Assembly (NCBI GenBank): GCA_018268915.1
Contig: JAFDVQ010000007.1
Location: forward strand, 124,001-188,000
Reading direction: 5' to 3'
Length of the DNA: 64,000 bases
DNA from: Acidobacteriota bacterium
Lineage (GTDB): Bacteria > Acidobacteriota > Terriglobia > Terriglobales > Acidobacteriaceae
Positions 4,719 through 30,080 of the stretch are shown here, in pieces (position 1 is the stretch's first letter; each line of letters starts with the position of its first letter). The translations under genes and the position numbers were made by a program. A model generated the notes under the pieces. It ran no database searches and was not told the DNA's origin. It was given only the letters and a program-made list of their open reading frames with translations.

Positions 4719-5951
4719 ATGCGCGATTGCGTTTCGTACGGTCGAATTGTGTCTTCCAATCTCCAAGTCATCGCGCGCGTGGCTGCGCTAGCGTTTTGCG
4801 GCACTGCAGCACTGGCAGCCGCACAGAGTGCACCCCCCGCAGTGGCGCCTCAGCAGGGGCCTGCCACTCGTCCTGCCTCTCCCATTCAGAAAGACCCCCG
4901 CCGCCCCGAGATCCAGCCGGACCTCGCAGTGGACCGTGACCCGATCCCGTCTCCCGACCCCGAGCCGGTCTCCGAAACTTCGAACGACATTACCGTGAAT
5001 ACGCCCGGCAAGACCGGGGAGATTCAGAAGGGCCAGAACGGCGTCTATACCCTCCACGAAAACGTGGACGAGGTTCTGCTCAATTGCACGGTCATTGACG
5101 AGAATGGTCATCCTGTTGAAGGCCTAACCCAGGCTGATTTCCGTGTATGGGAAGACAATGCTCAGCAGCGCGTCAGCTCATTCCGGCACCAGGACCAGCC
5201 CGTTTCTCTGGGGCTCCTGATCGATAACTCGGGCTCCATGCGCGACAAGCGCACCGCGATCAATCACGCAGCTATAAACCTCATGCAGCAGTCCAACCAT
5301 GAGGACACGGCGTTCGTAGTTAACTTCAATGACCATGCCTACCTCGATCAGGGATTTACGACCGACCTCGTCGCCCTCAATCGCGGCCTGGCGCACTTCG
5401 ACTCCAAGGGAACTACGGCTCTTTACGATGCCGTTGCGGCATCCGCTGACGAGCTGTCGAAGCATGCCAAGTTCCCGAAGCAGGTACTGCTGGTCGTTTC
5501 AGATGGAGCCGATAACGCCTCGCATCTGACTGAGCAAAAGACCATTCAGCGTGTGCAGGACCTGGGCGGTCCGGTCATCTACTCCATCGGCCTTCTCTAT
5601 GACGCCGACGAGCGCGAGTACCAGAAGGCTCACGAGTCCCTTCAGGCGATGTCCAACGATACCGGCGGTATAGCCTACTTCCCACGCTCTCTGGAAGAGG
5701 TGAACTCGATCGCCTCCGACGTCGCCCGCGACATTCGCAATCAGTACACGGTCGGTTATCACTCCAACAAGGCTTCCGCGCAGGGAGGGTTCCGCACTGT
5801 TCACGTGGAAGCTTACGGCAAAAAGGGTGCAAAGCTCATCGTCAGAACACGCCGCGGCTATTACGCCAAGCCAAGCACTCCGAATCAGACCGCCCAGACC
5901 GCTCCGAGCGGACAGGCAACGCCGAGCGCCCAGACAGCTCCGAAACAATAG
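4719..5951 (+). CDS. Secreted VWFA-domain protein (acidobacterial VWFA-related type)
   Basis: The protein has 410 residues: signal peptide at about 17-36, then a Pro-rich spacer (37-85), a beta-rich segment with the EVLLNCTVIDENGHPVEGL pattern, and a von Willebrand factor A domain from about 163 to 370. The metal site (MIDAS) is intact: Asp169-x-Ser171-x-Ser173, Thr232/233 and Asp262. The layout is that of the VWFA-related proteins that are expanded in Acidobacteria. It probably acts outside the cytoplasm as a metal-dependent protein-binding module; the partner is unknown. The C-terminal 30 residues are a low-complexity Thr/Ala/Pro/Gln tail. A small 7-bp hairpin (5968-5986) follows the stop. 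Confidence 0.9.
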   Translation: MRDCVSYGRIVSSNLQVIARVAALAFCGTAALAAAQSAPPAVAPQQGPATRPASPIQKDPRRPEIQPDLAVDRDPIPSPDPEPVSETSNDITVNTPGKTGEIQKGQNGVYTLHENVDEVLLNCTVIDENGHPVEGLTQADFRVWEDNAQQRVSSFRHQDQPVSLGLLIDNSGSMRDKRTAINHAAINLMQQSNHEDTAFVVNFNDHAYLDQGFTTDLVALNRGLAHFDSKGTTALYDAVAASADELSKHAKFPKQVLLVVSDGADNASHLTEQKTIQRVQDLGGPVIYSIGLLYDADEREYQKAHESLQAMSNDTGGIAYFPRSLEEVNSIASDVARDIRNQYTVGYHSNKASAQGGFRTVHVEAYGKKGAKLIVRTRRGYYAKPSTPNQTAQTAPSGQATPSAQTAPKQ

Positions 5952-8550: not shown

Positions 8551-9702
8551 TTAAAACTGCGGACGCGTTTCCAGCTGCGGTTGTGAGGAAGAAGGAGCTG
8601 GAGTACTGGGCTCAATCACTCCGCCACGGGGTGTCAACTCTACAGGCGCTTGCTCTTGACGCCGCTTTTGGCTGTAGACCTCCAGTGCGTCATCCACCTT
8701 GCCATTGCTGCCTCCGGCTACGTTTTCCAGACTCTGCCCCTGGGCTGCGAGCTGTGTCGCCATGCCCACGCTGGCCGCAGCGTTCTCGGCACGTTGAGCC
8801 TTGCTGTAGAAGAACTGTGCTGATTCGAGATCCCCGTCCTGTTCAGCGACGAATCCCCGATTGTTCAGTGTGAACGCGCTATTCGGATCCAGCGAATAGG
8901 CCTTCAGGAAATCCTGTCGGGCAGCATCCCGGTCGTTCTGATTCTGCTCGAAGACTCCCCGGATGGTCAGCATGATGGCTTGCGACTCAGCGGAACCCGT
9001 ATCCCGAATTCGCTTTTGCAGCCTCTTTGCGCTTGCGGCTGCCATGTCGCTGACAGACTTCCCGCGCCACGCGCGATCTGCCGCGACAATCGTCGGCTCG
9101 GTAGAGTGGGTTGAAGCCGCGGTCAGGTAATACCGGAGCGCTCCGTTGAAATCGCCAATCGACTCGCTGGCCACACCCAGATTGTTCAGCGTGAACGTAT
9201 TGTTGGGATCAAGAGGCAGCGTCTTCTTCAGCAGGTCCATCGCCTCGAATCCACGATTCTGCGATAGAAGCCGCATGGCGTTGATGTTTTGCCGGTTCAC
9301 CTTCATCGTGGCGTCTTGCAGGTTGACGACGGCATCGCGCATGGGCTTGCCCTGCAGGTGCTTGGCGCTGCTGAAATCGATGGTCGCGTTGGATCCCTGT
9401 TCCGCTGCGAGCCCGTAGAACTTCTGCGCCTTATCCAGGTCGCCCTCGAGCTCGGAGACATACCCCAGGTTGTTCAGGGTAAACGGATCTGCCGGGTCAT
9501 AGAGATAAGCCTTGTAGAAGAGAGACTCGGCATTTTTGTAGTCCCGCTTCTTGATCGCATCCACACCGCGGCGGTTCAGTTTCTGTACCGGGGTCAGTTC
9601 GCTCCGGCGGGGGATCTTGATCACGTGCGAGTCTGCCGCCCAGCTAATTGAGCCGGCAAGGACGGTAAGTCCCACGATCCGCACTAGATACCTATAACCC
9701 AC
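8551..9702 (-). CDS. Exported TPR-repeat protein
   Basis: The protein has 383 residues from the GTG at 9702, chosen because AGGAG lies eight bases upstream; the frame is open to 9810 without a site. A signal peptide (LVRIVGLTVLAGSISWAADS) is followed by at least three separated TPR blocks sharing DPNNTFTLNNLG / DPNSAFTLNNRG / DPADPFTLNNLG, near residues 65-110, 150-195 and 255-300. The tail is Pro/Gln/Ser-rich. TPR proteins of this kind usually act as periplasmic or outer-membrane scaffolds. It overlaps functionally with the neighbouring envelope genes and is 28 bp upstream of the nucleotidyltransferase-like gene, so the two may be co-transcribed. Confidence 0.85.
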   Translation of the reverse strand: MGYRYLVRIVGLTVLAGSISWAADSHVIKIPRRSELTPVQKLNRRGVDAIKKRDYKNAESLFYKAYLYDPADPFTLNNLGYVSELEGDLDKAQKFYGLAAEQGSNATIDFSSAKHLQGKPMRDAVVNLQDATMKVNRQNINAMRLLSQNRGFEAMDLLKKTLPLDPNNTFTLNNLGVASESIGDFNGALRYYLTAASTHSTEPTIVAADRAWRGKSVSDMAAASAKRLQKRIRDTGSAESQAIMLTIRGVFEQNQNDRDAARQDFLKAYSLDPNSAFTLNNRGFVAEQDGDLESAQFFYSKAQRAENAAASVGMATQLAAQGQSLENVAGGSNGKVDDALEVYSQKRRQEQAPVELTPRGGVIEPSTPAPSSSQPQLETRPQF

Positions 9703-9806
9703 CCGACGTTCTCCTGTCCTTGCCGCTAGAATTGAAGGGGAAGAGGGTAATCCTTCACTTTTAGTTAGATGCCCAATTCCGCGCTGTGTTGCTCTATCGT
9801 TGAGTG

Positions 9807-9818
9807 CCACTTAAGTGG
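9807..9818. promoter_or_regulatory. 12-bp palindrome in divergent promoter region
   Basis: CCACTTAAGTGG lies midway between two divergent genes (starts at 9702 and 9901). It is a plausible operator. A site this short is expected by chance several times in the window, so support is weak. Confidence 0.25.
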
Positions 9819-9900
9819 AATGGCTGCATGGGACCAACGATGGCCTTGTTGACGCCATCTAATCGATTCTGACCGTCTTACTGAATAGGTGTGCAAGACC

Positions 9901-10770
9901 ATGAAACGAATCCCTGAATTCGCGTTGCTGGGAGCTGTATCTTTGTCACTCAGCGGACAAATTATTGCCCAGACAGCGCAGCAGGCCCCCGCCGAGCCTG
10001 AGACCCCACCCACTCATCTGAAACCGGTAACGACGATACCGCAACTCCCCAAAGGGACCAGCACCATCCTTGGAGGTGCTATTCGCGACATCGATCCGGT
10101 GCTTGACCGCTTCAATCTCAATATCGTCGGCGACAAGAAGATGAGGATTCTCTACGACCAGCGCACGCAATTATTTGTCGACGGCAAACGAATCTCGCTC
10201 AACAAGCTTCGTCCTGCGGAACATGCCTCGGTGCAGACCACGCTCGACGGCACCAACGTTTTCGCTATCAGCATTCATATCCTTTCCCAGCTTCAGCAGG
10301 GCGACTACAGCGGACAGGTCCAGAGCTACGACCCAACCACCGGCGATATTCAGATCGTCGGCGAGCGCGGGGGAGACCCGTTGCGGCTCCGTGTCTCCAG
10401 CAGTACCGTCTTCGAGAGAAAGGGGCAGGGAAGCTCCTCCAACACGCCGGCAGGTCCGGGGGACTTGCAACCCGGCTCGCTTGTATCCCTTCAGTTTGAC
10501 CCCGACGGAAAGGGCAAAGCCATTGCAACAAAGATCACCGTGCTGGCGACTCCGGGCTCGACCTTCGTCTTTACCGGCAATCTGGTTTCAATCGACAACA
10601 GTACCGGCACCATGATGGTTCTGGATCCGAGAAACGATGAGACGTACCAGGTGGGCTTTAACCCAGGCACGCTCCCATCTCTGCAGAACATCCATCCCGG
10701 CGAGCATGTCCGCATCAGTGCCGCCTACGACGGCAAGCGCTATGTCGCCGAAAGTGTGACCTCGGAGTAG
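9901..10770 (+). CDS. Exported DUF5666-like repeat protein
   Basis: The protein has 289 residues from the ATG at 9901; an in-frame GTG at 9889 is less likely. A signal peptide covers residues 1-23 (ending IIAQ). After a Pro-rich spacer there are about three similar beta-barrel segments: GGAIRDIDPVLDRFNLNIV, YSGQVQSYDPTTGDIQIVG and FTGNLVSIDNSTGTMMVLD, each followed by a short turn and a closing strand. This is the pattern of DUF5666-type OB-like repeats in secreted proteins. The molecular function is unknown. It is convergent with the phosphoesterase lipoprotein gene that ends at 10842. Confidence 0.7.
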   Translation: MKRIPEFALLGAVSLSLSGQIIAQTAQQAPAEPETPPTHLKPVTTIPQLPKGTSTILGGAIRDIDPVLDRFNLNIVGDKKMRILYDQRTQLFVDGKRISLNKLRPAEHASVQTTLDGTNVFAISIHILSQLQQGDYSGQVQSYDPTTGDIQIVGERGGDPLRLRVSSSTVFERKGQGSSSNTPAGPGDLQPGSLVSLQFDPDGKGKAIATKITVLATPGSTFVFTGNLVSIDNSTGTMMVLDPRNDETYQVGFNPGTLPSLQNIHPGEHVRISAAYDGKRYVAESVTSE

Positions 10771-14743: not shown

Positions 14744-17700
14744 CTAAAAAATACTCACTTGAATGTACGGCCTGATCTGTTGGCTATGTCCGCCCGGGAA
14801 ATTGAAGAATGTTTCCGTCTGCACCCCGCCCGAGATTCGGATCGGATATTGCAGTACTACTTCACCGGATTCGTCGCGGAACTTTCGCTTGAAAGGCCGC
14901 GCGTACGAAACCGAGAAACCGTTCTGGCTCGCGTCATAGACGTGGAAGCTACGCGTGCTCGAGAAAGCTGAACGAGCCTGAATCTCCCAGTTGCGTCTGG
15001 GCTTGAAATCAACCGATGCCGCGGGACGAAGATCCTGGGCGATGCCCGATCTTCCGTGCACCACGCGCCATGCTCTGAGATCCTCGACCATGCCTCTCAC
15101 GCTCAGCCGTTCTGAGAAACGATGCTCCAGACCGATATAGGAGGAGGTAAGGTAGTCTTCGATCTCCGCAGGATGGAAGACCTGGTCGCCTCCACCCCAT
15201 CCAGTCACCAGAGCCGTCTTTCCCCACGGTGCTCCCACCCGGAAATTCAGGGCAGCAGCGAGGACACGCGAATGTTCATCCGTGTTGGTGAAGGGCCCGC
15301 TCTCACGAATCAGATAGCCGCTGGCAGAGAGGGCATTGAAGAACGAACTCGTTTGCATGTAGATGAACGTGCGGAATAGGTTCTGGTTGATCTCGCGGGG
15401 AGACAACGAATCGCGCCGGATGGTCGTCTGAACGCCGCCGCTGAAAGTGATGATGTTCCGGCCCAGATTCACACTCGGGTTCAGAGCGAAATTCAGCGTC
15501 CAGTCCGTGGTGTTGCGGTTTGCGATCGAGTTGGTCGCGGGCACTGAGATCTGGCCTCTGCTATTTCGAATCTGGAAGAATCCGCCCGGCTCCGGCAGCT
15601 TGCCCAGGTGCAGGTGGAATGCATTGGTTGACTGCATTTGAAGTTGCGAGCGCGGCGGGGGAAGCAGCGAGGGATCTGTGCTTGGAACCACGAAACTGGC
15701 ATCCAGCTTGGAGTCCAGAACGTAAGTCGTCGTGTCCTCGAAGATCGGCGCCACCGTGAAGTCGGAAAGAACGCTGACCTGCGGCGTGACCCTCAAGCCC
15801 TCGTTAGCTCCGGCCTGAAGCAGGCTGGTCGAGGCCGACTCATCTTCGCCTCCGATGTTGGAGGCTTGGGCAAACGAAGAGAGCGCCTCAACATTCCGAT
15901 GCTCCTGGCGATAGAGATTCGCCTGAGCAAGGAGATACTGATAATCCGGAGCGCTGTCGGCGTCGGTCTTGATAGCAGCGAGTTCGGCGTTGGCCTTCGT
16001 TGTTTCCCCAAGTGCGAGATATGTGTTCGCCAGGCCGATTCGAACTGACGTTTCGGGAGCGCCGGCGATTTTGGCGTGCCCGATATATGTTTCCGACAGC
16101 TGGTAGTCGTGCAGAGACCGAAAGATGTCCGCTGCTTGGATGTACTGCTGACCCGTTGGGGGCAGGGAATCGCCCGCGGCTGCTTCCATCATTGCCAACG
16201 CAATTTCGCGCTGGGCATCGTCGTTGCGGTCTTGCTGAGCCATGGTTTGCGCAATCGCCAGCCGTACACTCACGCGATTCGCTTGTGGCATCTCCAGCGC
16301 CTTGCGGTAGCGGTCCATTGCCGCGTTCTGGTCGCCCAGTTCCGCCAGCGCCTGCCCGGTCGAAACAAATGTGTCGCTCTGGATCGACTCCGCATACGGG
16401 TTGCTCGGAGGCGGAGCAGCCAGTGCCACTTTCTCCGCAATCTCTACGTAGTGGAACGTCTGCTCCCGTTCACCCAGGAACGCATACGAGCGAGCAAGCA
16501 TCGCCGGGATAGCCGGATTGTCGGGGCCGTATTTCTCCGCCACCTGCAGTTCATCGATCGCGTCGTGATAGCGGCGAGCGCCAAACAGGGTTCCCGCGAG
16601 CCCGAGATGGAGCGCTGGATCATCGGGTGTGAACTTCAAAGCTGCCTTGTACTCGGTAGCTGCCTTGGTCAGCATCCCTTCGCGGCCGTAAGCCGTAGCC
16701 CGAATTACGTGCACATTCTTCGAGTCGCCCATCAGCTTTTCGGCAATGTCGGCGTGGCGAATTGCCGCCTGCGATCTGTGCAGATTCAAGTCGGCATAAG
16801 CCATGCCCAGGTTTGCTTCGCCGTTCTTGGGATCTCGCTTCAACGCTGCATCAAAGTCAGCCGAAGCGCCTTCGGGATTGTGCAGGTCGTTGCGCATGTA
16901 ACCGCGGTTCACATATGCGGTCACCATGTCAGGATCGCGCTTCAGGGTCTCGGTGAAGTCCTGCTCCGCCTCTTCCGATTTGTTCTGGTGTTTATGAACG
17001 TACCCCTGTAGCAGCGGAATATCCGGCTCCTTGGGCAGCACGTCCATGTACTGCTGTGTCAGAGCGAACAGCTCATCGTACCGCTCCATATGAAGCATGT
17101 CGTAGCCGAGGTAGACGACGACGTCTCGATCCTTCGGCAGGACTTTGATGGCCTGCTGCCCGATCTTGGCAGATTGTTCGTAGTCGCCCTTAAAACTGAG
17201 ATACCGTTCTTCCTCACGCAGGAACTGCGGCTCGGCGGCCATCTCCGGAGTCGAACGTGCCAGCCACTTGCCGGCGAGGTCCAGATCATGAGCCTCGATT
17301 GCAGCGTTCATCGCTCCTGCAACCACCATCGCGTTCTTCGGAGCAAGCTCGAACGCCTTCGCGTATGCGGTTTCCGCCTTGCTGTAATGCTTGCGAGCCG
17401 TATACAGATCGCCGAGAGCGGCGTATCCCACCGAGAGATTCGGTTCAACCTGCGTCAGCCGCTGAAAGTACTTTTCCGCATCGTCGTCCCGGCCCGCCGC
17501 TCGCGATGCGTACCCGAGAGATATAAGGGCAAAGCGGTTCTTCGCGTCGATGGCAAGAATCTTCTTATACGTCGTGATGGCTTCTTCGGTGCGCCCCAGC
17601 TTCATCAGCACGTCGCCGTTCAGCTGCAGTCCGCCAGGATTTCGGCTATCGATCGCGAGCGCATTCCTCACATCGGCGAGGGCTCCGTTCGGATCGCCCG

Positions 17701-18985
17701 AAGCAAGCTTGATCTGCGCACGAAGCCTGAGTAGCTGCGGCCGGTTCGGTCCTTGTTCGTCGAGCTTCTCGACTTGCTGCTTCGCGGTCGCAACTTCAGA
17801 CTGGGAATTCTGATCGTCTCTCTGCGCCTTGTAGAGGTCCGAGAGATTCATGTGGAGCTGAATCCCATAGAGCGGTCCTTCGACCGGCTCGGCCGGCAGG
17901 TGTGCAATGGCAATCTTGTATTCGTTGATCGCTTCGGGCCCCTGATCGTGAATGCGGGCAATCTCTCCGCGAATCGCATGAAGCCGGTAGTTGTTGCCGT
18001 CGATTCCGGCGGCCCGCTTCAGGAATGCATCCGCCTCTTCCGTCGATCCTGCCGCCACCTGCGCCTGCGCAGCTGACAACTGCAGGTTCAGGTCCTTGGG
18101 GACAGAGTTCGCGGCCTTGGCGTACGTCTTTGCAGATTCATCCAGTTTGCCGTCGAGCTGATAGGTGTAAGCAAGTTCGGCGACAACATCCGGTCGAGGA
18201 TTTTTGATTGATTTCAGCGCTGCGATCGCTTCGGGGTACTTCCCCTCCTGGCGGTAATAGCCGGCCATTGCTCGCTGCACCTCAGGATTATCTGGGGCCC
18301 TTTTCCTTGCCGCCTCGAGGTACCTGGTCGCCATATCCGGCTTGTTCAGGTGCTCGTAGCTGATGGCCAGCAGCAGTTCCGACCGTGCGTCCGGGTGAGC
18401 ACGCTCCGCCTGCCCCAGAGCGTCCACAGCAGAGGCGTAATCCCCACCACGCATATAAATATCGCCGAGAACAAGGGCGTCATTTGCACGTTTCGGATTC
18501 GCCGCCAGCACCTGTTTCAGCAGCTTCTGAGCTTCTTCGTTCTTGCCCATCGCGGCATAGGTCTGCGCCAAGCCCGACAGGCCTTCCAGGGAAGAGGGGT
18601 TGATCCTTAGCCCGTGTGAATATGCATCGGACGACTGCCCGTAGCGCCCATTTAGGCGGGCTGCGTATCCCACCAGAAACCACAGCTGGGCATCATTAGG
18701 TGCAGCCTGCGCGGCGCGCTGGGCGAATTCGAGCGCACGAACCTTATCGCCGCGCTGGAGAGCCTGTTCCGCCGCCCGTCCCAGTCGCGCGTTCTCGATA
18801 TTCGAGCCAAATCCAAGTTCTGGCTGCTGACCCTGCGCCTGTTTTGGCGCTTGCTTCTGCCCGGGTTTTGCGTTCTGATTAGGAGTTTCAGGTCCGATCT
18901 GGTACGTCTGCGCATGAGCAGCGCAGACAGCGGCCAAAAAAACCGCCAGATAGGCAGAATTCAATGGTCTGACTTTCAATTTCAA
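14744..18985 (-). CDS. Giant TPR protein with outer-membrane barrel (EPS export porin, BcsC/PgaA-like layout)
   Basis: The protein has 1413 residues from TTG 18985 with AGGTGA upstream. A signal peptide ends at AAHAQ (residue 26). Residues 70-1060 are continuous TPR repeats, for example the ALQRGDKVRALEFAQRA, NPSSLEGLSGLAQTYAAMGK and DPDMVTAYVNRGYM blocks, more than 20 units. The last 330 residues change to alternating polar/nonpolar strands with NWEIQARSAFSS and GGVQTETFFNFPGG, ending in Phe (QIRPYIQVSIF), which is the outer-membrane barrel signal. This is the layout of BcsC, PgaA and AlgK/E, in which TPRs bind the polymer or synthase and the barrel passes the polymer. I infer polysaccharide export; sequence family membership is not proven. 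It is divergent from the PTPS-related operon. Confidence 0.8.
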   Translation of the reverse strand: MKLKVRPLNSAYLAVFLAAVCAAHAQTYQIGPETPNQNAKPGQKQAPKQAQGQQPELGFGSNIENARLGRAAEQALQRGDKVRALEFAQRAAQAAPNDAQLWFLVGYAARLNGRYGQSSDAYSHGLRINPSSLEGLSGLAQTYAAMGKNEEAQKLLKQVLAANPKRANDALVLGDIYMRGGDYASAVDALGQAERAHPDARSELLLAISYEHLNKPDMATRYLEAARKRAPDNPEVQRAMAGYYRQEGKYPEAIAALKSIKNPRPDVVAELAYTYQLDGKLDESAKTYAKAANSVPKDLNLQLSAAQAQVAAGSTEEADAFLKRAAGIDGNNYRLHAIRGEIARIHDQGPEAINEYKIAIAHLPAEPVEGPLYGIQLHMNLSDLYKAQRDDQNSQSEVATAKQQVEKLDEQGPNRPQLLRLRAQIKLASGDPNGALADVRNALAIDSRNPGGLQLNGDVLMKLGRTEEAITTYKKILAIDAKNRFALISLGYASRAAGRDDDAEKYFQRLTQVEPNLSVGYAALGDLYTARKHYSKAETAYAKAFELAPKNAMVVAGAMNAAIEAHDLDLAGKWLARSTPEMAAEPQFLREEERYLSFKGDYEQSAKIGQQAIKVLPKDRDVVVYLGYDMLHMERYDELFALTQQYMDVLPKEPDIPLLQGYVHKHQNKSEEAEQDFTETLKRDPDMVTAYVNRGYMRNDLHNPEGASADFDAALKRDPKNGEANLGMAYADLNLHRSQAAIRHADIAEKLMGDSKNVHVIRATAYGREGMLTKAATEYKAALKFTPDDPALHLGLAGTLFGARRYHDAIDELQVAEKYGPDNPAIPAMLARSYAFLGEREQTFHYVEIAEKVALAAPPPSNPYAESIQSDTFVSTGQALAELGDQNAAMDRYRKALEMPQANRVSVRLAIAQTMAQQDRNDDAQREIALAMMEAAAGDSLPPTGQQYIQAADIFRSLHDYQLSETYIGHAKIAGAPETSVRIGLANTYLALGETTKANAELAAIKTDADSAPDYQYLLAQANLYRQEHRNVEALSSFAQASNIGGEDESASTSLLQAGANEGLRVTPQVSVLSDFTVAPIFEDTTTYVLDSKLDASFVVPSTDPSLLPPPRSQLQMQSTNAFHLHLGKLPEPGGFFQIRNSRGQISVPATNSIANRNTTDWTLNFALNPSVNLGRNIITFSGGVQTTIRRDSLSPREINQNLFRTFIYMQTSSFFNALSASGYLIRESGPFTNTDEHSRVLAAALNFRVGAPWGKTALVTGWGGGDQVFHPAEIEDYLTSSYIGLEHRFSERLSVRGMVEDLRAWRVVHGRSGIAQDLRPAASVDFKPRRNWEIQARSAFSSTRSFHVYDASQNGFSVSYARPFKRKFRDESGEVVLQYPIRISGGVQTETFFNFPGGHSQQIRPYIQVSIF

Positions 18986-21043: not shown

Positions 21044-22170
21044 GCAACGGAAGTCGCCTATTGGCTGTCGTACTCGCCGCCGCAACTGTAGCTCTGGTGA
21101 CGATTGGAACTCTCTGGCCCAGTAAGTCTGCAGCCGCCTTCGCCAGCGGCGCGCAGTTCACCACCTCGGCAGGTACACCGGAAGCCGCCGTTCGCACGCT
21201 TGGCGAGCAGATCCGTGCGAACTCATATGGCCGCGCTTATGAAGCCCTTGCCAACAAGGGCGAATTCAGCGAACAACAGTTCCATCGCGATCTCACCAGT
21301 GGCTGGCCTGATCTTCGTACCTATGCAACGCTCAGCGATTTTCAGGTTCAGCCCCTTCACGCCACCGACTCCGAAGCCAGCGTGCGGCTCAAAATGCAGT
21401 GGTCCACTGTCGTCGGCCCATCGATCAGCACCCGCGAGCTTCACCTGGTCAGGAATGGCAGCAAGTGGCAAATCGAGTGGCCCATCCAGAAAGAGCCAGT
21501 CGTTCCTCCGCAGGTCATCCCTGTCAACTATCTCCGCTGGGATGTGATCAACCGCGGTTCAGCAGATGACTGGGGCGCAAATGACGTCGAAGCGCCCCAC
21601 GTCCGCATCGTCGACATGCACCCTGTGCAGCGTGCCGAAGGGCTCGTTCTGCTTGGTGAGTTGTTGAACGAAGATGTTATCCCAGCTTACGTGTCTGTCT
21701 CCGCTACGCTTTTATCTAAGGATCAGAAGGTCATCGACACAGAAGGCAGTTTCGATAACATCTCGCATCAGCTTCTGCCCAAGCAGGTCACGCCCTTCCT
21801 CATTCGCTTCCCGAACGTCACGCTCTCGCAAGTCGGAAGCGTGCGCATGACGCCGTTCTCGACTCTGATTTCGGCATCGGCGGATCCCGTTATCGAAATT
21901 CAGGATGAGAAGCTGACGCCTGCACCTGATGCTTCGCTTACGGGACAGCTGGTAAACCAGAGCGGTCAGATTGCCAATGTCGCGCACGTGATGGGTACGT
22001 TCTACGACCAATCAGGCCAGGTCGTGTGGGTCGGCGATCAATATGTTGATCACGCGCTCCTTCCAGGAACCCCGATTGCCTTCAACATTCATATCCCGGA
22101 AGACCTCGCCCGCAAGGTCAGCAGCCAGCGGACAGTCGTTGCGACTTATAGCTTCGGAGGGGCTCAGTGA
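21040..22170 (+). CDS. Membrane-anchored protein of unknown function with FxLYD-like domain
   Basis: The protein has 376 residues. It starts at GTG 21040, with GGGAGG eight bases upstream and a GTGA overlap with the previous stop. One N-terminal membrane helix (LLAVVLAAATVALVTIGTLW) places the rest outside the cytoplasm. Residues 45-150 look like an NTF2/DUF4878 cone (AAVRTLGEQIRANSYGRAYEAL, then VRNGSKWQIEWPI). The last 130 residues (LTGQLVNQSGQIANVAHVMGTFYDQSGQVV) follow the FxLYD beta-sandwich pattern. No enzyme motif is seen. Its place between a GT-C-like protein and a GT2 enzyme suggests an accessory role in polymer assembly. Confidence 0.65.
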   Translation: MSNGSRLLAVVLAAATVALVTIGTLWPSKSAAAFASGAQFTTSAGTPEAAVRTLGEQIRANSYGRAYEALANKGEFSEQQFHRDLTSGWPDLRTYATLSDFQVQPLHATDSEASVRLKMQWSTVVGPSISTRELHLVRNGSKWQIEWPIQKEPVVPPQVIPVNYLRWDVINRGSADDWGANDVEAPHVRIVDMHPVQRAEGLVLLGELLNEDVIPAYVSVSATLLSKDQKVIDTEGSFDNISHQLLPKQVTPFLIRFPNVTLSQVGSVRMTPFSTLISASADPVIEIQDEKLTPAPDASLTGQLVNQSGQIANVAHVMGTFYDQSGQVVWVGDQYVDHALLPGTPIAFNIHIPEDLARKVSSQRTVVATYSFGGAQ

Positions 22171-23033
22171 GGACAGTTATCCCAACTTTGCTGGGTGGCC
22201 TCGCTCTCGGAATCACCACGGCTTTTGCGCAGTCCGGCGATCTCACCATGCCCAAGACCATCGAAGCTGGAGCTGCGTTCTCCATTCAGAGCGCCGGCAG
22301 CGGGAAGGGAACGATCTATATCGCTGGCCCTGGTCAGGTGATCAAGCAGGATGTCCAGCTGGGAGCTGGCATATCCATTCCTGCGGGCTCGCTGTACAAC
22401 GCTGGGCACTATTCGGTCTGGCTGACCTCGGATTCCTCGACGCAGTCAGGGTCGATTGATGTCCTCCCCGCGCAAAAACTTTCTGACATCACTTTTATTG
22501 CTAAACCCTCCCGTCTTCCTGTAGCTTTACACAACGCAATCACAGGTTCAGTCTACGTTTTCGATTCCTACGGGAATCTGATCACTAAGCCCATGCAGAT
22601 TTCTTTTCAGCTTTTGAATCCGGGTAGCGCTCCCCAGACCCGGACGGCGGAGACCCGTCACGGAGCGGCATGGACACAGATGGACTCTGCTGCGCGCGAG
22701 GGCAAGGCGCAATTTATTGCCAAGGTCGGGGATATTTCCAGCACTCGAATCGTCGGGCAGGTTCCCGGTGATCCCTGCACTATCAAAATGAACGCGAAAG
22801 CGGCGGGCAATAAGATTCAGCTCGTCACCGACCCCGTCAAGGATTGCAGTGGTAACGCTATTCCTGACGGTACCATTGTGACCTTCACCGCATCCTACGG
22901 TGATGCCAAGTCCACAGTAGATGTTCCCCTCAAGAAAGGAATCGCATCTACTGTAATACCAGCACACCGTGGAGCCATGATCTCAGTAGCCAGCGGTGTG
23001 GTCCTTGGAAACCAGATTAGGTGGGCACAGTGA
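22167..23033 (+). CDS. Exported Ig-like protein of unknown function
   Basis: The protein has 288 residues, with GTG start at 22167 overlapping the previous stop as GTGA. A signal peptide (PTLLGGLALGITTAFAQ) is followed by beta-rich segments: AGAAFSIQSAGSGKGTIYIAG resembles an Ig-like fold, and residues 110-280 (TGSVYVFDSYGNLITKPMQISF, IPDGTIVTFTAS, GIASTVIPA) resemble two bacterial Ig-like group-1 (invasin-type) domains. It contains two cysteines (DPCTIK, KDCSGN) that could form a disulfide. It is probably periplasmic; I do not recognise a specific family. Confidence 0.65.
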   Translation: MRTVIPTLLGGLALGITTAFAQSGDLTMPKTIEAGAAFSIQSAGSGKGTIYIAGPGQVIKQDVQLGAGISIPAGSLYNAGHYSVWLTSDSSTQSGSIDVLPAQKLSDITFIAKPSRLPVALHNAITGSVYVFDSYGNLITKPMQISFQLLNPGSAPQTRTAETRHGAAWTQMDSAAREGKAQFIAKVGDISSTRIVGQVPGDPCTIKMNAKAAGNKIQLVTDPVKDCSGNAIPDGTIVTFTASYGDAKSTVDVPLKKGIASTVIPAHRGAMISVASGVVLGNQIRWAQ

Positions 23034-23536
23034 TACCAAAACAGATGTTGCTGATTTCCGCCTTTTCCACCGCTCTCTCGCTCTCAGCCTATGCCGCTGA
23101 TGAGCCCACAGTACATGTCCAACAGCCTCGTCTGCAGGGTCCTCGCGAACTCCAGGAAGCCACCGCAAAAGCCGTGGTCCAGAACTACCTCGATTCCTGG
23201 CAGAGCATGAGCAAGGCCCTCAATCAGAACCGCCCCGATCTCCTCGACCGGGACTTTGTCGGTTCAGCCAAGGAGAAACTCGCGGCCACAATTAAGCAAC
23301 AGACGGCCGCCGGTGTAAGCACCACCTATCGCGATCGCTCCCACGACGTGCAAATCTTGTTCTATTCGCCGGAAGGGCTCTCTATTCAGCTCGCCGACGA
23401 TGTCGAATACGATGTGCAATTGTCCAGTGGCGGCAAGTCGTTGGGAACACAGCAGGTAAAAACCAGGTACGTCGTGGTTCTCACCCCTTCTGAAGTTCGC
23501 TGGCGGGTGCGTATTTTTCAGGCTGAGGAACAGTGA
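23030..23536 (+). CDS. Small exported protein of unknown function (NTF2-like pattern)
   Basis: The protein has 168 residues. The GTG at 23030 overlaps the preceding TGA as GTGA; an in-frame GTG/ATG earlier is not needed. A signal peptide (ISAFSTALSLSAYAAD) is followed by a helix-rich half (AKAVVQNYLDSWQSMSKALNQNRPDLLDRDFVG) and a strand-rich half (VQLSSGGKSLGTQQ, RYVVVLTPSEVRWRVRIFQAE). This resembles the NTF2-like cone fold of SnoaL/DUF4440 proteins, without catalytic residues I can name. It is the third GTGA-coupled member of the operon, so its stoichiometry is probably tied to the preceding exported protein. Confidence 0.65.
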   Translation: MIPKQMLLISAFSTALSLSAYAADEPTVHVQQPRLQGPRELQEATAKAVVQNYLDSWQSMSKALNQNRPDLLDRDFVGSAKEKLAATIKQQTAAGVSTTYRDRSHDVQILFYSPEGLSIQLADDVEYDVQLSSGGKSLGTQQVKTRYVVVLTPSEVRWRVRIFQAEEQ

Positions 23537-23621
23537 ATTCGAAATTAACTGCATCTAAACAATTTGGGCCGGGTGAAAAACCCTCTTGCGGGACACCCAA
23601 TGCGATCAAACAGGAGCTGAA

Positions 23622-24647
23622 ATGATCTCAATCGTCATACCGATTTATAACGAAGAAGAGCTGATCGAGCAGCTGAACGAGGCCCTCGCATCTGCCTTGA
23701 AGGGGGCGGTGGACGACTACGAAATTGTCTACGTCAACGATGGTTCAACTGACTCATCGCTCGAACTTCTTCGTGGGCTGCAGGCTGTTGATTCGCATGT
23801 GGTTGTCGTAGAACTCTCTCGCAATTGGGGTCACATGGGCGCCATTAACGCAGGCCTCCAGACCGCACGCGGGCGTGCCGTCATTCTCATGGACGGTGAC
23901 TTCCAGGATCCTCCCGAGGTTCTTCCTCGCATGATCGATGCCTGGCGCAAAGGGGCAGAGGTGGTGGTTGGCGTTCGCCGCAGCCGTCAGGAAAGCCGGA
24001 AGATGCTGGCATTCCTCTTCCCCCTGTTCTATCGCGTCATGGGCTCGCTCTCCGACTATCCGATTCCGCTCAACGCCGGCATCTTCAGCCTCATGGACCG
24101 CAGGGCCCTCGATTCCGTTCTCGCAATGCGGGAAAAGAACCGTTATCTCCCCGGCCTTCGCGCCTGGGTAGGCTATAAGAACGCCATCGTTTACTACGAC
24201 CGTCAGGATCGTCTCGGCGGAGAAGGCAAACTCTCCTTCATCAGCCGTATCAAGTACGCGATGGATGCGATCACCAGCTTCAGCTACAAGCCGCTCAGGC
24301 TGAGCTTCGGACTGTTTGGGTTCACGCTGAGCGTCTCCATGCTGATGCTGCTCTGCATGTTCATCCCCAAGAGTTCCGTAGCTACTGCAGCTTTCGGGCT
24401 GGCCAGCGCGATGTTCTTCGTCGGAGGCCTGGTGATGCTCTCAATCGGCATCCTTGGCGAGTATGTCGGCCGAATCTACGACGAAGTTCGCAACCGTCCA
24501 CTTTCCCTCATCAGCCACGTTCATCGTCCCCAGGTCAGCATCCAGACCGAAACTGGCACGATCGAGGTCCCCGTGGGCAGCTATGGCATCGCAGGCGGTC
24601 TGTCGGCAATGCAGGCCGGCAGCTTCCAGGAGCAAGACGCAGCATAA
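23622..24647 (+). CDS. GT2 glycosyltransferase, GtrB/undecaprenyl-phosphate sugar transferase type
   Basis: The protein has 341 residues. The ATG at 23622 has AGGAGC upstream. The GT-A core has IVIPIYNEEELIEQ at the N-terminus, VYVNDGSTDSS, the AINAGLQTARGRAVILMDGDFQDPPE donor block with the DGD metal site, and the RNRYLPGLRAW-like acceptor loop. Two C-terminal membrane helices (LRLSFGLFGFTLSVSMLMLLC and MFFVGGLVMLSIGILGEYVGRIYDEV) are typical of GtrB and ArnC/DPM1-like enzymes, which load a sugar onto undecaprenyl phosphate. The final 40 residues are unstructured. It probably makes the lipid-linked donor for the GT-C-like protein encoded at the start of the same operon. Confidence 0.9.
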   Translation: MISIVIPIYNEEELIEQLNEALASALKGAVDDYEIVYVNDGSTDSSLELLRGLQAVDSHVVVVELSRNWGHMGAINAGLQTARGRAVILMDGDFQDPPEVLPRMIDAWRKGAEVVVGVRRSRQESRKMLAFLFPLFYRVMGSLSDYPIPLNAGIFSLMDRRALDSVLAMREKNRYLPGLRAWVGYKNAIVYYDRQDRLGGEGKLSFISRIKYAMDAITSFSYKPLRLSFGLFGFTLSVSMLMLLCMFIPKSSVATAAFGLASAMFFVGGLVMLSIGILGEYVGRIYDEVRNRPLSLISHVHRPQVSIQTETGTIEVPVGSYGIAGGLSAMQAGSFQEQDAA

Positions 24648-25177: not shown

Positions 25178-26191
25178 TCAGTGTCCGCCGCTGGGCCCAC
25201 CTGAAGGTCCTGCGCCCGCCGTAGACATCGGCTTCATCTGGCCGCCGCCCTTGCCGCAGTTATCAATCCCTTTTTCCATCGCCGTTCCTTCTTCGTAGTC
25301 ATTCCATGTTTCGAGCAGGATGAACGGGGGGACCTGGTCCGGAGGGAACACTTTTCGCCAGTAATTGAAGGTGTCCTGATAAGTCTGGCCGCAGCGGGCC
25401 GAAATGTGCCGGTTGAGCCCCCAGTGGGCCTTGCTGTCGTCGAACGTAGACCACGCCCCGCCCACGATCAGCTTGTCGGGGTGCTTGGTCTTCATCGTCT
25501 GATAGAAGTTGCTCAGATATTGTTCGCCCCAGTTGCTGCCGTCTGCGGTCCAGCCCTTTTCACCGGGATTCACCCATGCGTAAAAGCCGTCGAAGGCATT
25601 GGCATACTGCCCCGGCAAGTTCTCCTGAATCAGCAGGGGAGCTGGATCCCACGTGTTCACCATGGCACGCACCTTATCCCAGTTCGTGTGGCCGCTCTTC
25701 GGGAAGATGAAGATGATCGGGTGACCCTGATAGTTCAGGTAGGCGTCGTACCCCTCCGCCTTAGTTGCCAGGTAGGTGTCATGGAAGACGGTGAAGTCCG
25801 CGATCGCCACATCCGTCGCGTCCTCCTCGTGGTCGGTCTCGTCGTACATCATCGCGACCTTGAAGTGGTTCTTCCCGGCCGCCTTCTGCATTTCTGAATA
25901 AGCCTGGTTGATAAAAGGCTCGCGATCACCATACCAATCCACTACAAAGCCCGTGATTCCCATTGCCTTAGCGGACTTGATCTGACGGTCGATCACATCG
26001 GGATCTTGCGAGGAATAGCCAACAGAAATGTGCCGAGGATGCCCGAACCAGGCCTCATAAAGCGCGAGCACCTGCGGCGCATTGCCCGATGCCCGATACT
26101 TAAGTTGTAGGGGCGCATCCGCGGCCGAGCTCAGACACCCGTGCGGGAAGTAGGATAGGAGCAAGAGTACACATAATCGGTTGAGCATCAA
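25178..26191 (-). CDS. GH99-like secreted glycosidase
   Basis: The protein has 337 residues and a signal peptide with possible lipobox (LLSYFPHGC). The fold is that of GH99/GH71-like (beta/alpha)8 enzymes: VLALYEAWFGHP at the start, DVIDRQIKSAKAMGITGFVVDWYG (acidic residues at the barrel mouth), KVAMMYDETDH, HPIIFIFPKSG and the closing FILLETWNDYEEGT, which carries the usual catalytic-site acid pair. GH99-like proteins act on alpha-mannosides or remodel exopolysaccharides. Set between EPS genes, it may trim or release the polymer. The C-terminal 25 residues are Gly/Ser/Pro-rich. It runs opposite to the flanking operons. Confidence 0.8.
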   Translation of the reverse strand: MMLNRLCVLLLLSYFPHGCLSSAADAPLQLKYRASGNAPQVLALYEAWFGHPRHISVGYSSQDPDVIDRQIKSAKAMGITGFVVDWYGDREPFINQAYSEMQKAAGKNHFKVAMMYDETDHEEDATDVAIADFTVFHDTYLATKAEGYDAYLNYQGHPIIFIFPKSGHTNWDKVRAMVNTWDPAPLLIQENLPGQYANAFDGFYAWVNPGEKGWTADGSNWGEQYLSNFYQTMKTKHPDKLIVGGAWSTFDDSKAHWGLNRHISARCGQTYQDTFNYWRKVFPPDQVPPFILLETWNDYEEGTAMEKGIDNCGKGGGQMKPMSTAGAGPSGGPSGGH

Positions 26192-26373: not shown

Positions 26374-28332
26374 GTGGCCACTTCCTCAGTGCCAAGTAGA
26401 AAGACCCTGCAGGCACGGATTGTCTCAGGCAGCATTGTCCTGTTATCGGGCTCGGGCCTGAACACTGCCATCAATCTTGCGTACAACATTGCGGTCGCCC
26501 GCTATCTGGGACCAAAGGGCTTCGGACACGCAACTGTCATCTACACGATCCTCGTCCTCCTGTCGGCAGTTACGCTGGCATTCCAACTCATCGCCACCAA
26601 GATCGTCGCTCAGCAGCCCACAGCCGAGGCGAAGTCGGCTGTCTATCGCCTATTCCATCGCGCTTCCTGGATTTGCGGAATTGTAGTTGCTCTCGGCCTC
26701 GTCGCTTTCCAGAACGGAATTTCTAACTACCTTAACCTTCCTGCTGCGAGCCTTGTCGGCATCATCGCCATCGGCGCAGCGTTTTACGTGCCACTCGGCG
26801 CGCGACGCGGTTACGTTCAAGGCTCGTGTGGATTCCGCAATCTCGCTGCAAACCTCGTTACTGAGCAGCTTGTCCGCCTGGTGGGCTCGCTGGCATTGAT
26901 CTCGATGGGATGGGGACTCAAGGGCGTCATCGCAGCAAACTCCGCTGCCATCGCCATCGCGTACGTCACGGTGCGGGTCAAGCTGACTGGCCGCGGAACG
27001 CTCCCAATCCGCTATTCGCATGCAGCGCATGAGACCTTCCAGGCCGCGGTCTTCTTCGCGGGACAAATGATCATCAACAACGGCGGAATCGTTCTGGTGA
27101 ATCACTTCTTCCTCGCGCGCGAAGCGGGTTATTACGCAGCGGTTGCGATGGTCGGCCGCGTGATCTTCTCGTTCTCGCAGGCTGTTGTGAACTCCACCTT
27201 CCCGCTGGTTGCCGGTACAAGCAACGAAGAGCGAAGGGATTTGCGAGTCATCGCGACTGCATTGGCTCTCGTGGTGGGCGTCGGTGCGGCCATTTCACTT
27301 GCGCTCTGCATCGCACCGGCCGAACTCTGGACCCACTTGTTCGGCCCCGATTTCTCGATCGCAGGCAAATACAACTTGCCTTACCTCCTCGCCCTTTACG
27401 CTCTTGCGACCGTGATCTATTCACTGGCTGGAGTCATCATCACCTTCGAGATGTCGTACAAGATTGCAAACACCAGCTGGGTTCAGCTGGCGTTCAGCGG
27501 CATCCTCCTCGCCGCGTTCTGCTTCTTCCACTCCTCGCTTCGCGAAGTTGTGCTCGTGCAATTGGTGCTGATGGTCCTCCTGTTCATCTTCGTGGCGGTG
27601 CCGTTCCTCATCAACTCGCTCACTGATCCCAAGGACATTCTGGAGCCCGGCTCGACTCGCCCGGTGCGCCTGATCCGTCGAATCTCGGAAGACGCAGCTA
27701 TCGCCGAGTTCCTGAAGAGCGACTTCCATGTTCCGGCCTTTCGCGAGTACCAGAAAACACTCAGCGAGATCGTGCTGAATCCGGATTTTGAGGATGCTGA
27801 AGAGAATGCGAAGCGTCGTGCTCTTTTCTTCATCCGTCATTCTTACCTCTGGCGCGAAATCCCGGAAGACACCGAGTGGTATGAAGCGGAGATCAAGTAC
27901 GAGGATCTCGCGAGCGTTCGCATGTTTCCGCGCGCGCAATGGCGCAAGGTCGCAAATGGACGTTTCTCCTGCATTCACATTGCAGAGGGAATGACAAAAA
28001 ACGCGGATGTGCTCGACTCCGCATTTGTATCCAAGATCCACGCCATCAGCCGGCTATTTGATACGGAAGACACCGGGCTTAATTCTGTGATCCTGATCGG
28101 GACAAGCGAATCGGAACCGCTTACCGTCGTCGATGGCAATCATCGCCTGACAGGCGCCCTGATGCATTCTCCCGAAGCTGTCGGCAAATTGCGATTCATC
28201 TGCGGACTCTCGCCGCGCATGACGGAGTGCTGCTGGTACAGGACGAATCTCATCACGCTCTTCCGTTATGCCAAGAACGTGCTAACGCATTCAACCAGGA
28301 ATCCGGCCGCAGAACTCGCGCGGATGCTTTGA
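26374..28332 (+). CDS. Lipid-linked polysaccharide flippase fused to a ParB-like DGNHR domain
   Basis: The protein has 652 residues in one unbroken frame from GTG 26374. Residues 12-425 form a Wzx/MurJ-like flippase with about 12 helices (GSGLNTAINLAYNIAVARYLGPKGFG is the usual first block). After LINSLTDPKDILEPGS comes a soluble cytoplasmic part of about 220 residues: helical (ISEDAAIAEFLKSDFHVPAFREYQ), then LASVRMFPRAQWRKV, and VVDGNHRLTGAL with Asp587-Gly-Asn-His590-Arg591, the ParB/Srx-fold substrate loop. The end (RMTECCWYRTNLITLFRYAKNV) has a Cys pair. The flippase half would move undecaprenyl-linked glycans; the tail's role is unknown, perhaps nucleotide sensing. Confidence 0.8.
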   Translation: MATSSVPSRKTLQARIVSGSIVLLSGSGLNTAINLAYNIAVARYLGPKGFGHATVIYTILVLLSAVTLAFQLIATKIVAQQPTAEAKSAVYRLFHRASWICGIVVALGLVAFQNGISNYLNLPAASLVGIIAIGAAFYVPLGARRGYVQGSCGFRNLAANLVTEQLVRLVGSLALISMGWGLKGVIAANSAAIAIAYVTVRVKLTGRGTLPIRYSHAAHETFQAAVFFAGQMIINNGGIVLVNHFFLAREAGYYAAVAMVGRVIFSFSQAVVNSTFPLVAGTSNEERRDLRVIATALALVVGVGAAISLALCIAPAELWTHLFGPDFSIAGKYNLPYLLALYALATVIYSLAGVIITFEMSYKIANTSWVQLAFSGILLAAFCFFHSSLREVVLVQLVLMVLLFIFVAVPFLINSLTDPKDILEPGSTRPVRLIRRISEDAAIAEFLKSDFHVPAFREYQKTLSEIVLNPDFEDAEENAKRRALFFIRHSYLWREIPEDTEWYEAEIKYEDLASVRMFPRAQWRKVANGRFSCIHIAEGMTKNADVLDSAFVSKIHAISRLFDTEDTGLNSVILIGTSESEPLTVVDGNHRLTGALMHSPEAVGKLRFICGLSPRMTECCWYRTNLITLFRYAKNVLTHSTRNPAAELARML

Positions 28333-28403
28333 GTTTTTGATCCAGAGGTCGATTGTTTCAACTTGCTTTGCAGCTCTCTAAATCAGTTTCAAAAGGAACA
28401 GGG

Positions 28404-28802
28404 ATGAGAACAAAAATCAGATCAGTCGCAGTCAGGAAATTACCTGAGCGAATTTCCGGAGCGCAGCGTCAAGAGCTCTACAAGGCCCTTGAGGGCTGCA
28501 TCGTCGTGGATCGGCCAGCGGTGGTTCTCGATTGCTCTGAAGTGCGTGAACTGGACCGATCCGCGATTCACCTCCTACTCTGTTGCCTAGAAGAAGCCAT
28601 GAAACGGAACGGCGATGTTCGCCTTGCCTGCCTCAGCCTCGAAGTGAAGGCAGCATTGAAGGCTGCCGAAGTCAGCACTCTGTTTCATTCGTTCGCGGAC
28701 ATCAGCGATGCGGTCGAAAGCTTTCATAAGCCGCAGCTTGACTTCATCCAACTCCAGAACCCGGTGCTCGGCGACGAAAAATCGGAAATGAACGCGGCAT
28801 GA
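28404..28802 (+). CDS. STAS-domain protein
   Basis: The protein has 132 residues from the ATG at 28404, with AGGAACAGGG upstream. The anti-sigma-antagonist fold is seen in KALEGCIVVDRPAVVLDCSEVRELDRSAIHLLLCCLEEAMKRNGDVRLACLS: strand, helix, strand, then the Asp-Arg-Ser segment where SpoIIAA-like proteins carry the phosphorylated Ser. STAS proteins act in partner-switching control of sigma factors or transporters. No kinase or phosphatase partner is adjacent. It overlaps the next gene as ATGA and lies 72 bp after the flippase gene, so it belongs to the polysaccharide operon and might control it. Confidence 0.8.
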   Translation: MRTKIRSVAVRKLPERISGAQRQELYKALEGCIVVDRPAVVLDCSEVRELDRSAIHLLLCCLEEAMKRNGDVRLACLSLEVKAALKAAEVSTLFHSFADISDAVESFHKPQLDFIQLQNPVLGDEKSEMNAA

Positions 28803-29323
28803 AAGTGAGGAGTGAGATGTTGAAATATGGCAGCTTCCGGCGGAACAGCAGTTTCGTTTGCGCCGGACTCAAGGGCCCGCTCGTTATGGCTCTGTGTGCA
28901 ATGCTGCTCATACAGCCGACTCTCGGAACCGCCCAGGAGCCTGCGAAGAATCCGCAAGCCGCCCCCTCGCTGGTCAGCACGGCGGAGTTCAGCAGTTCGC
29001 AGCCTGCTGAAGAGCTTCCTTCCGCTCCGGTGCCGCAGGCGCAGCCCCCTGCGCCGCCGCAGCAGCAAAATCAGCCGGTGCCGCAAGACCAGGCATCGCC
29101 ACAGCAAAGTCAACCCGCGCAGCAGCCTCCCGTTGGCACGGCCGCTGCACCGTATGAAAAGCCTACCGGTGTGCCGGGATCGCGCCCCGCCGGCGCGGCA
29201 ATCGCTCCGGCTAAGCAGCGTCGAGTCCGCGCGATTGTGATCAGCCTCGGGCTCATCATTGCTGGAGGAGCCGCAATAGGCGCAATTGCCGGCATGTCGA
29301 AGGCGAGCCACAGCACACCTTGA
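28799..29323 (+). CDS. Pro/Gln-rich membrane-associated protein of unknown function
   Basis: The protein has 174 residues. The start ATG overlaps the STAS stop as ATGA. It has an N-terminal signal or anchor (PLVMALCAMLLIQPTLGTAQE), then 100 residues dominated by Pro, Gln and Ala (PPAPPQQQNQPVPQDQASPQQ), and a C-terminal membrane helix (AIVISLGLIIAGGAAIGAIAG). With a helix at each end it may span or tether envelope layers. No family is recognised. Its translational coupling to the STAS gene suggests the two work together. Confidence 0.65.
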   Translation: MKVRSEMLKYGSFRRNSSFVCAGLKGPLVMALCAMLLIQPTLGTAQEPAKNPQAAPSLVSTAEFSSSQPAEELPSAPVPQAQPPAPPQQQNQPVPQDQASPQQSQPAQQPPVGTAAAPYEKPTGVPGSRPAGAAIAPAKQRRVRAIVISLGLIIAGGAAIGAIAGMSKASHSTP

Positions 29324-29348
29324 TCTTTCTGAGGCCATAAAACAAAAA

Positions 29349-30080
29349 ATGAATACGGCAGCAAAGGTTAGAACCGTTAGCTTCTCAGGCGTGGACGGCG
29401 CTGGTAAAACTACTCAAATCGATAACCTGTGCGCATTCCTTACGCAGCAAGGGATTCGCTACCGGGTGTTTCGCTTCTGGGACGATATTGCGCAACTCAA
29501 AGACGTCCGTGAGGGCACCGGCCATCGAGTGTTCAAAGGCGAGAAGGGAATCGGCTCGCCAGAAAAACCAATCAACCGACGCGACAAGAATGTGCAGGGT
29601 TTTCCCATGACCTGCATTCGGATGTTTCTATATTTCGCGGATGCCCTCTCCACGCGCAGGGTATTCAAGCGCGCCGTGGCGGGCGATGTGGAATTCGTTA
29701 TCTTCGATCGCTACACCTACGATGAACTCGCGAACATGAAATTGGACAACTTATTTGTCAGAATCTATGTCCGGTTCATCATGGCTCTGGTTCCCCGGCC
29801 CGACATCAGCTACCTCCTCGATGCTGATCCCGAAGCTGCGCGCGCGCGAAAACCGGAGTATCCCGTCGACTTCATTCGCCAAAATCGGAAAGCCTATTTT
29901 GATATCAACCGCGTGGTGGGTGGCTTGACGGTGATAGCTCCGATGGCGATCGAAGATGCAAAGAGAGCAGTCGTGAGCCACGCCGCTGCCATTCTTCCTG
30001 CAACATCCGCGCCAGGGCTCGATCGGAATGTTGAATACGGTCGGACGGGTTCTACGAACACCGATCCAGCTCTCTCTTGA
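29349..30080 (+). CDS. Thymidylate kinase-like P-loop protein
   Basis: The protein has 243 residues from the ATG at 29349. The Walker A motif is GVDGAGKTT (residues 14-22), and the DRYTYDELAN segment matches the DRY/H motif of thymidylate kinases; the LID-like Arg cluster lies at EAARARKPEY. It is about 30 residues longer than the usual dTMP kinase (about 210) and lacks the canonical neighbours of tmk (holB). Because it sits in a polysaccharide locus behind the flippase and STAS genes, it may phosphorylate another substrate. An essential housekeeping tmk is likely elsewhere. A strong terminator follows. Confidence 0.75.
   Translation: MNTAAKVRTVSFSGVDGAGKTTQIDNLCAFLTQQGIRYRVFRFWDDIAQLKDVREGTGHRVFKGEKGIGSPEKPINRRDKNVQGFPMTCIRMFLYFADALSTRRVFKRAVAGDVEFVIFDRYTYDELANMKLDNLFVRIYVRFIMALVPRPDISYLLDADPEAARARKPEYPVDFIRQNRKAYFDINRVVGGLTVIAPMAIEDAKRAVVSHAAAILPATSAPGLDRNVEYGRTGSTNTDPALS

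Follow-up and report, generated by a model that had tools for sequence, protein, structure and literature searches.

A Wzx-type flippase of Acidobacteriaceae obligately fused to a probably ParB/Srx-like tail

The 64,000-nucleotide stretch of acidobacterial DNA analysed here (the window) encodes a polysaccharide flippase that continues, within a single reading frame, into a soluble domain of ~220 residues. In the protein family so defined, each half is found only together with the other. We tentatively read the protein as the Wzx-type flippase of an acidobacterial gene cassette dedicated to a surface polysaccharide, carrying an obligate cytosolic tail of ParB/Srx-like fold with a regulatory role. 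The features on which this reading draws are collected in Table 1.

To our knowledge, the cytosolic control of Wzx flippases is a largely open matter, for which one Wzx lineage, with its obligately fused tail, is a tractable case. The tail is of soluble size, offers invariant candidate ligand residues and has free-standing relatives; because a single genus contains species with the cassette and species that lack it, function can be compared between them. The pairing itself may hint at a cellular control of flipping, and the ParB-fold repertoire would extend to a family missed by the PF02195 profile.

MOP flippases are known, as are a cytosolic regulatory tail in one form (the MurJ-pseudokinase) and ParB-fold fusions, the last being diverse according to a 2025 survey that examined the fold through PF02195 (PMC12704722). 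What appears to be new is the combination of a flippase with a ParB-like tail. A literature search of partial coverage, in which absence is no proof, returned no report of it, and the words "flippase", "polysaccharide" and "transmembrane" are absent from the survey's main text. The view of the first-pass annotation that the architecture is unusual is thereby supported.

Table 1. Features of the fusion protein, its neighbourhood in the window and the free-standing relatives of its tail
Feature	Coordinates	Strand	Basis
Polysaccharide flippase half with Wzx/MATE fold (MOP superfamily), residues 1-415	26374..27618	+	Foldseek; PF01943 below cut-off; topology and charge pattern
Linker of low model confidence, residues ~416-430	27619..27663	+	pLDDT <50 at 418-427; variable in alignment
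Soluble domain, probably ParB/Srx-like, residues ~431-652, ~220 aa	27664..28329	+	Alignment A1, model, weak ParB/Srx matches
FPRAQWR, residues 518-524, after first core strand, positioned like the ParB NPxQxR segment	27925..27945	+	Match to ParB by eye
Helix 549-563 and loop preceding strand VILIG, candidate Box I (C motif), no residue signature	28018..28062	+	DSSP of model
DGNHR at residues 587-591, putative GxxR P motif of Box II	28132..28146	+	Column counts
CGLSPRMTECCWY, residues 610-622, three invariant Cys	28201..28239	+	Alignment A1, column counts
1413-residue TPR-rich protein	14744-18985	-	Homologues directly upstream of fusion in L047-L051
Two exported-looking proteins, conserved upstream	22167..23536	+	Cluster 5 at 22 loci, cluster 6 at 19; one with Big_1 PF02369, 4.6e-4, below cut-off
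Family-2 glycosyltransferase (GT2), conserved neighbour	23586..24647	+	PF00535, 3.9e-33; cluster 4 in 24 loci
GH71/GH99/WbsX-like protein, apparent signal peptide, conserved divergent neighbour	25178..26191	-	PF03659, 1.8e-7, and PF16317, 1.2e-5, both below cut-off
STAS-domain protein, conserved on the downstream side	28353..28802	+	PF01740, 3.7e-10; cluster 3 in 28 loci
P-loop protein resembling thymidylate kinase, conserved nearby	29286..30080	+	PF02223, 4.7e-11
Free-standing ParB-like family, ~200 aa	L052 5968-6573; L101 5028-5609; L081 1296-1895	L081 (-)	Streptomycetaceae megaplasmids and an acidobacterial genome

The flippase half and the fusion

Positions 26374-28332 (+) form one continuous ORF of 652 codons (652 aa) with a GTG start, no internal stop and its stop codon at 28330-28332, within a 5.9 Mb acidobacterial genome. 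The first-pass annotation had read this frame as a Wzx-like flippase running on into a soluble domain, and both parts of that reading are borne out. A Foldseek search with the full-length model returns WzxE as the best solved match (9g95_A, E 1.7e-7; 9g9o_A has a target TM-score of 0.73) and 48 matches in all with E of 0.001 or lower; among the matches listed, all are MATE, WzxE or MurJ. The Pfam family Polysacc_synt (PF01943) matches the flippase half below its curated cut-off (23.2 vs 28.2 bits; E 5.3e-5; region 17-279), but this cut-off is a detection threshold rather than a defining property, and the fold test outweighs the shortfall. On the strength of the modelled structure, residues 1-415 are a Wzx-type flippase of the MOP superfamily, with oligosaccharide flipping as its putative activity.

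Family-averaged hydropathy and DSSP of the model predict 12 transmembrane helices. For the N-terminus and the loops placed on the inside, the mean numbers of Lys and Arg across the family are 2.6, 4.3, 4.4, 3.2 and 3.4, and 1.2 for the last one, as against 1.2, 0.03 and 0.9 for the loops assigned to the outside. Because of the helix count and this mostly positive-inside pattern, both ends of the protein are placed in the cytosol, and the tail is hence predicted to be cytosolic, as the first-pass annotation had supposed. In fold and topology, as well as in its cassette with glycosyltransferases, the flippase half resembles WzxE; WzxE chains in the PDB, however, comprise only 409-418 residues, and the closest unfused flippase relatives found (404 aa in Deinococcus, 433 aa in Halobellus) likewise end where the window protein runs on for ~220 residues.

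Searching with the domain alone recovers the fusion in 10 of 35 same-genus genomes other than the window's own, a score that includes draft genomes in which some absences may be gaps. In the GTDB contig collection it turns up at 39 loci, of which three are interrupted by contig ends. The uninterrupted copies are open frames of 652-723 aa that align nearly end to end with the window protein at 43-89% identity. The nearest named relative, Occallatibacter savannae, is 82% identical over the domain and 89% over the full protein. Further genera of Acidobacteriaceae carry the fusion too, in one case in a genome assembled as a single 6.4 Mb contig, and in all the full-length protein is known from more than 40 loci of this family in independent assemblies of isolates and MAGs. 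One same-genus genome (G014, contamination 8%) holds two copies, L009 and L012, on separate contigs.

When the flippase half is the query, the same-genus genomes yield fused proteins only, in exactly the genomes found with the domain, and a class-wide profile search with this half found no unfused members of the family. The two halves diverge in step, their pairwise distances giving a Mantel r of 0.887 (0/5000 permutations), or 0.753 within the main clade only. Since the searches return only fused proteins and the distances of the halves go together, the fusion is old, has been inherited as a unit and apparently arose in a single event.

Fold of the tail

The model of the tail (pLDDT 86.3, pTM 0.82) begins with an N-terminal strand, three helices, the strand WYEAEI, a short helix, FPRAQWR and further helices, and continues through helix 549-563 and its loop to strand VILIG, strand LTVVDGNHR, a helix, strand LRFICG and C-terminal helices. 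Compared by eye, this order tracks that of the acidobacterial ParB sequences (EIPxxxxxxNPxQTR, LAELAASIxANGVVQPILVRP, RFQLIAGERRWRAS, IPAIL). In the same comparison by eye, GNHR falls at the end of a strand, where Box II has its GxxR phosphate motif, and helix 549-563 with its loop falls where Box I, as defined in the survey (PMC12704722), would lie.

Alignment A1, of 40 members, has 27 invariant columns in the tail. They include F518-P519-R520, W523, K554, G576 and G588-N589-H590-R591, and further C610-G611, S613, M616 and C619-C620-W621-Y622. All 37 fusions keep F518, P519, R520 and W523 constant, and equally G588, N589, H590 and R591. The DGNHR loop noted in the first-pass annotation is confirmed in the window protein, and the five most divergent fusions (L047-L051) carry EGNHR instead.

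Formal matches to the ParB clan are weak. Searched against the PDB with Foldseek, the tail gives no significant match, Noc and Spo0J appearing only at E 8.5 with highest probabilities of 0.10-0.11. The name ParB, Srx or Spo0J is borne by 12 of the 18 best-ranked hits in a viral structure library, none of them significant (E 0.08-1.8). Of the 40 members, 13 match the ParB-like phrog_33277 (best E 0.0027), and a free-standing relative matches a different ParB PHROG across its own GxxR region. No match to the tail was found in Pfam, PF02195 included, in NCBIfam or among PDB sequences, and no signal came from comparing its profile with that of 11 acidobacterial ParB N-domains, both alignments being too shallow. 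Because of the element order, the GxxR motif and the high share of ParB/Srx among the weak hits to structures and PHROGs, the tail quite probably has a ParB/Srx-like fold. Of the ParB identity proposed in the first-pass annotation, then, the core element order stands, and no single match bears it out at significance; since no significant ParB-clan family or structure match was found, we term the tail ParB-like and keep it out of PF02195. With the ParB-CTPase-fold fusions of the survey (PMC12704722) it shares the GxxR P-motif and the habit of fusing to other domains, and possibly the helix-loop before the middle strand; unlike them, it escapes PF02195 and has N-terminal helical and C-terminal Cys/helix extensions. 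The survey also judged co-folding with NTPs an unreliable guide to specificity.

Several more specific identities were considered and not borne out. A canonical ParB does not fit, HTH and ParA being absent among the annotated neighbours of the fusion; the genome's own PF02195 ParB sits elsewhere (G000:C16). In sulfiredoxin the catalytic Cys sits in GCHR; this place is taken in the tail by the invariant Asn589, which speaks against a sulfiredoxin role. A kinase-fold C-terminal domain of the mycobacterial MurJ kind is set aside by the lack of a kinase match in Pfam and Foldseek. Nor were relatives found in phage records or viral contigs that would trace the domain to a phage or virus; one partial match (E 3e-3 over 64 residues) lies inside a long hypothetical protein of a Fusobacterium phage.

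Searching for the domain by itself also uncovers free-standing relatives, whose spread is a lower bound, other phyla having been covered by one contig scan and by plasmid and phage sets. Streptantibioticus cattleyicolor and a Kitasatospora carry a 202-residue relative on megaplasmids that aligns over the whole domain (E 4e-3 in the first search, 2e-10 pairwise). Another acidobacterial family has a 200-residue relative, also aligning over the whole domain, with E 7e-34 to the Streptantibioticus protein. The free form matches no Pfam family, and its Kitasatospora neighbours (sigma factor, zf-HC2, acetyltransferase) give no pointer to polysaccharides. Fused and free forms share F446, L447, N478, R481, P497, W502, W523, G588, R591 and G611 in the numbering of the window protein. 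On the simplest reading, the domain was at first an independent unit, which a flippase later captured.

What the tail may do

On the reading we tentatively favour, the flippase half would move the lipid-linked oligosaccharide of the cassette, and the tail would be a regulatory module in which the GNHR loop and the Box I-like helix-loop bind a nucleotide. Were nucleotide binding lost, the ligand would instead be a protein partner from the cassette. In sensing either, the tail would modulate flipping, its bound or unbound state altering flipping itself or recruiting cytosolic enzymes that feed the flippase. A ligand-binding role is favoured because of the obligate pairing and the total conservation of GNHR, and a regulatory tail is made plausible by the precedent of mycobacterial MurJ (MviN), whose intracellular pseudokinase tail is proposed to be regulatory (PMC6180346). 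That protein is likewise a MOP flippase with a C-terminal cytosolic domain, but has 14 helices, a protein-kinase-like tail of another fold and another glycan pathway. The conserved Cys residues are left unexplained by the regulatory-module reading.

If a ParB-fold NTP switch (for CTP, ATP or GTP) tied the flipping of lipid-linked sugars to the nucleotide state of the cell, this would be the first case of a ParB fold controlling a membrane transporter. We regard such nucleotide gating as doubtful; a nucleotide-binding tail is weakened by the finding that 17 of 28 tested ParB-fold proteins bound no NTP in vitro (PMC12704722) and by the lack of a significant ParB match. The same preponderance of non-binders favours an alternative that dispenses with nucleotides, namely that the tail is a scaffold, a decayed ParB-like fold by which the flippase docks onto the glycosyltransferase, the STAS protein or the kinase-like protein. 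The close linkage within the cassette agrees with this, as does mycobacterial MurJ, whose linker and pseudokinase tail act through protein partners (PMC6180346). Yet GNHR is fully invariant across 37 divergent fusions, beyond what a pure scaffold would lead one to expect, and we consider this explanation, too, rather unlikely.

Also unlikely, in our judgement, is that the tail is an enzyme acting at the cytosolic face ahead of flipping, where it would perform a nucleotide-dependent phosphorylation or other modification either of the lipid-linked glycan or of its carrier. The fold does include a true small-molecule kinase, SerK, an ADP-dependent serine kinase annotated as ParB (PMC5120207, PMC12704722), which similarly places the ParB/Srx fold outside DNA partition but is archaeal, acts on free serine and has no flippase fusion. 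The very high conservation of the tail, its invariant columns including N478, R481 and W502 beside W523, K554 and GNHR, and the co-inheritance with a P-loop kinase-like protein would also suit an enzyme. On the other hand, no recognised catalytic motif was found in the tail, and the His of GNHR is displaced in the free-standing relatives, which read GHLR and GHIR and retain GxxR.

That the tail has no ParB fold and its GNHR resembles the motif by chance would accord with the want of any significant sequence or structure match. We hold this to be improbable in view of the element order, the placement of GxxR and the concentration of ParB/Srx among the weak matches of two independent searches. 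Least probable among the functional readings is that C610, C619 and C620 make the tail a redox or metal sensor, with the ParB-like core merely as its frame. All three Cys are constant in every fused protein and missing from the free-standing relatives P0002 and L081, and by their conservation could form a metal, redox or structural site; no known metal-site spacing is recognised among them, however, and they may be structural, so that a sensor is a distant prospect. An artefact joining two genes by frameshift or misassembly, for which no supporting evidence was found and which the first-pass annotation had named as one of the outcomes that would undo its reading, is excluded because the same continuous frame recurs in full-length copies at many independent loci.

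Gene neighbourhood

The usual gene order is two exported-looking proteins, the GT2, the divergent GH71/99-like protein and the fusion, followed by the STAS protein or proteins, a proline-rich exported-looking protein and the thymidylate-kinase-like P-loop protein, which is not obviously a housekeeping Tmk. Among 22 same-genus genomes, strong copies of the fusion, the GH71/99-like gene and the kinase-like gene coincide in one set of 9, and the genes with which the fusion is co-inherited have the look of a surface-glycan cassette. On a Deinococcus plasmid (L102) bearing an unfused relative of the flippase, a STAS gene (5571-5723) lies a few genes downstream; the association of flippase and STAS may be wider than the fusion.

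The five divergent fusions L047-L051 sit beside homologues of the window's 1413-residue TPR-rich protein instead of the usual cassette, and most of these loci also carry homologues of the DUF5666 protein (9889-10770) and of the TPR protein at 8551-9810. Because those fusions adjoin homologues of proteins encoded in the window, the window's own fusion may be part of a larger region.
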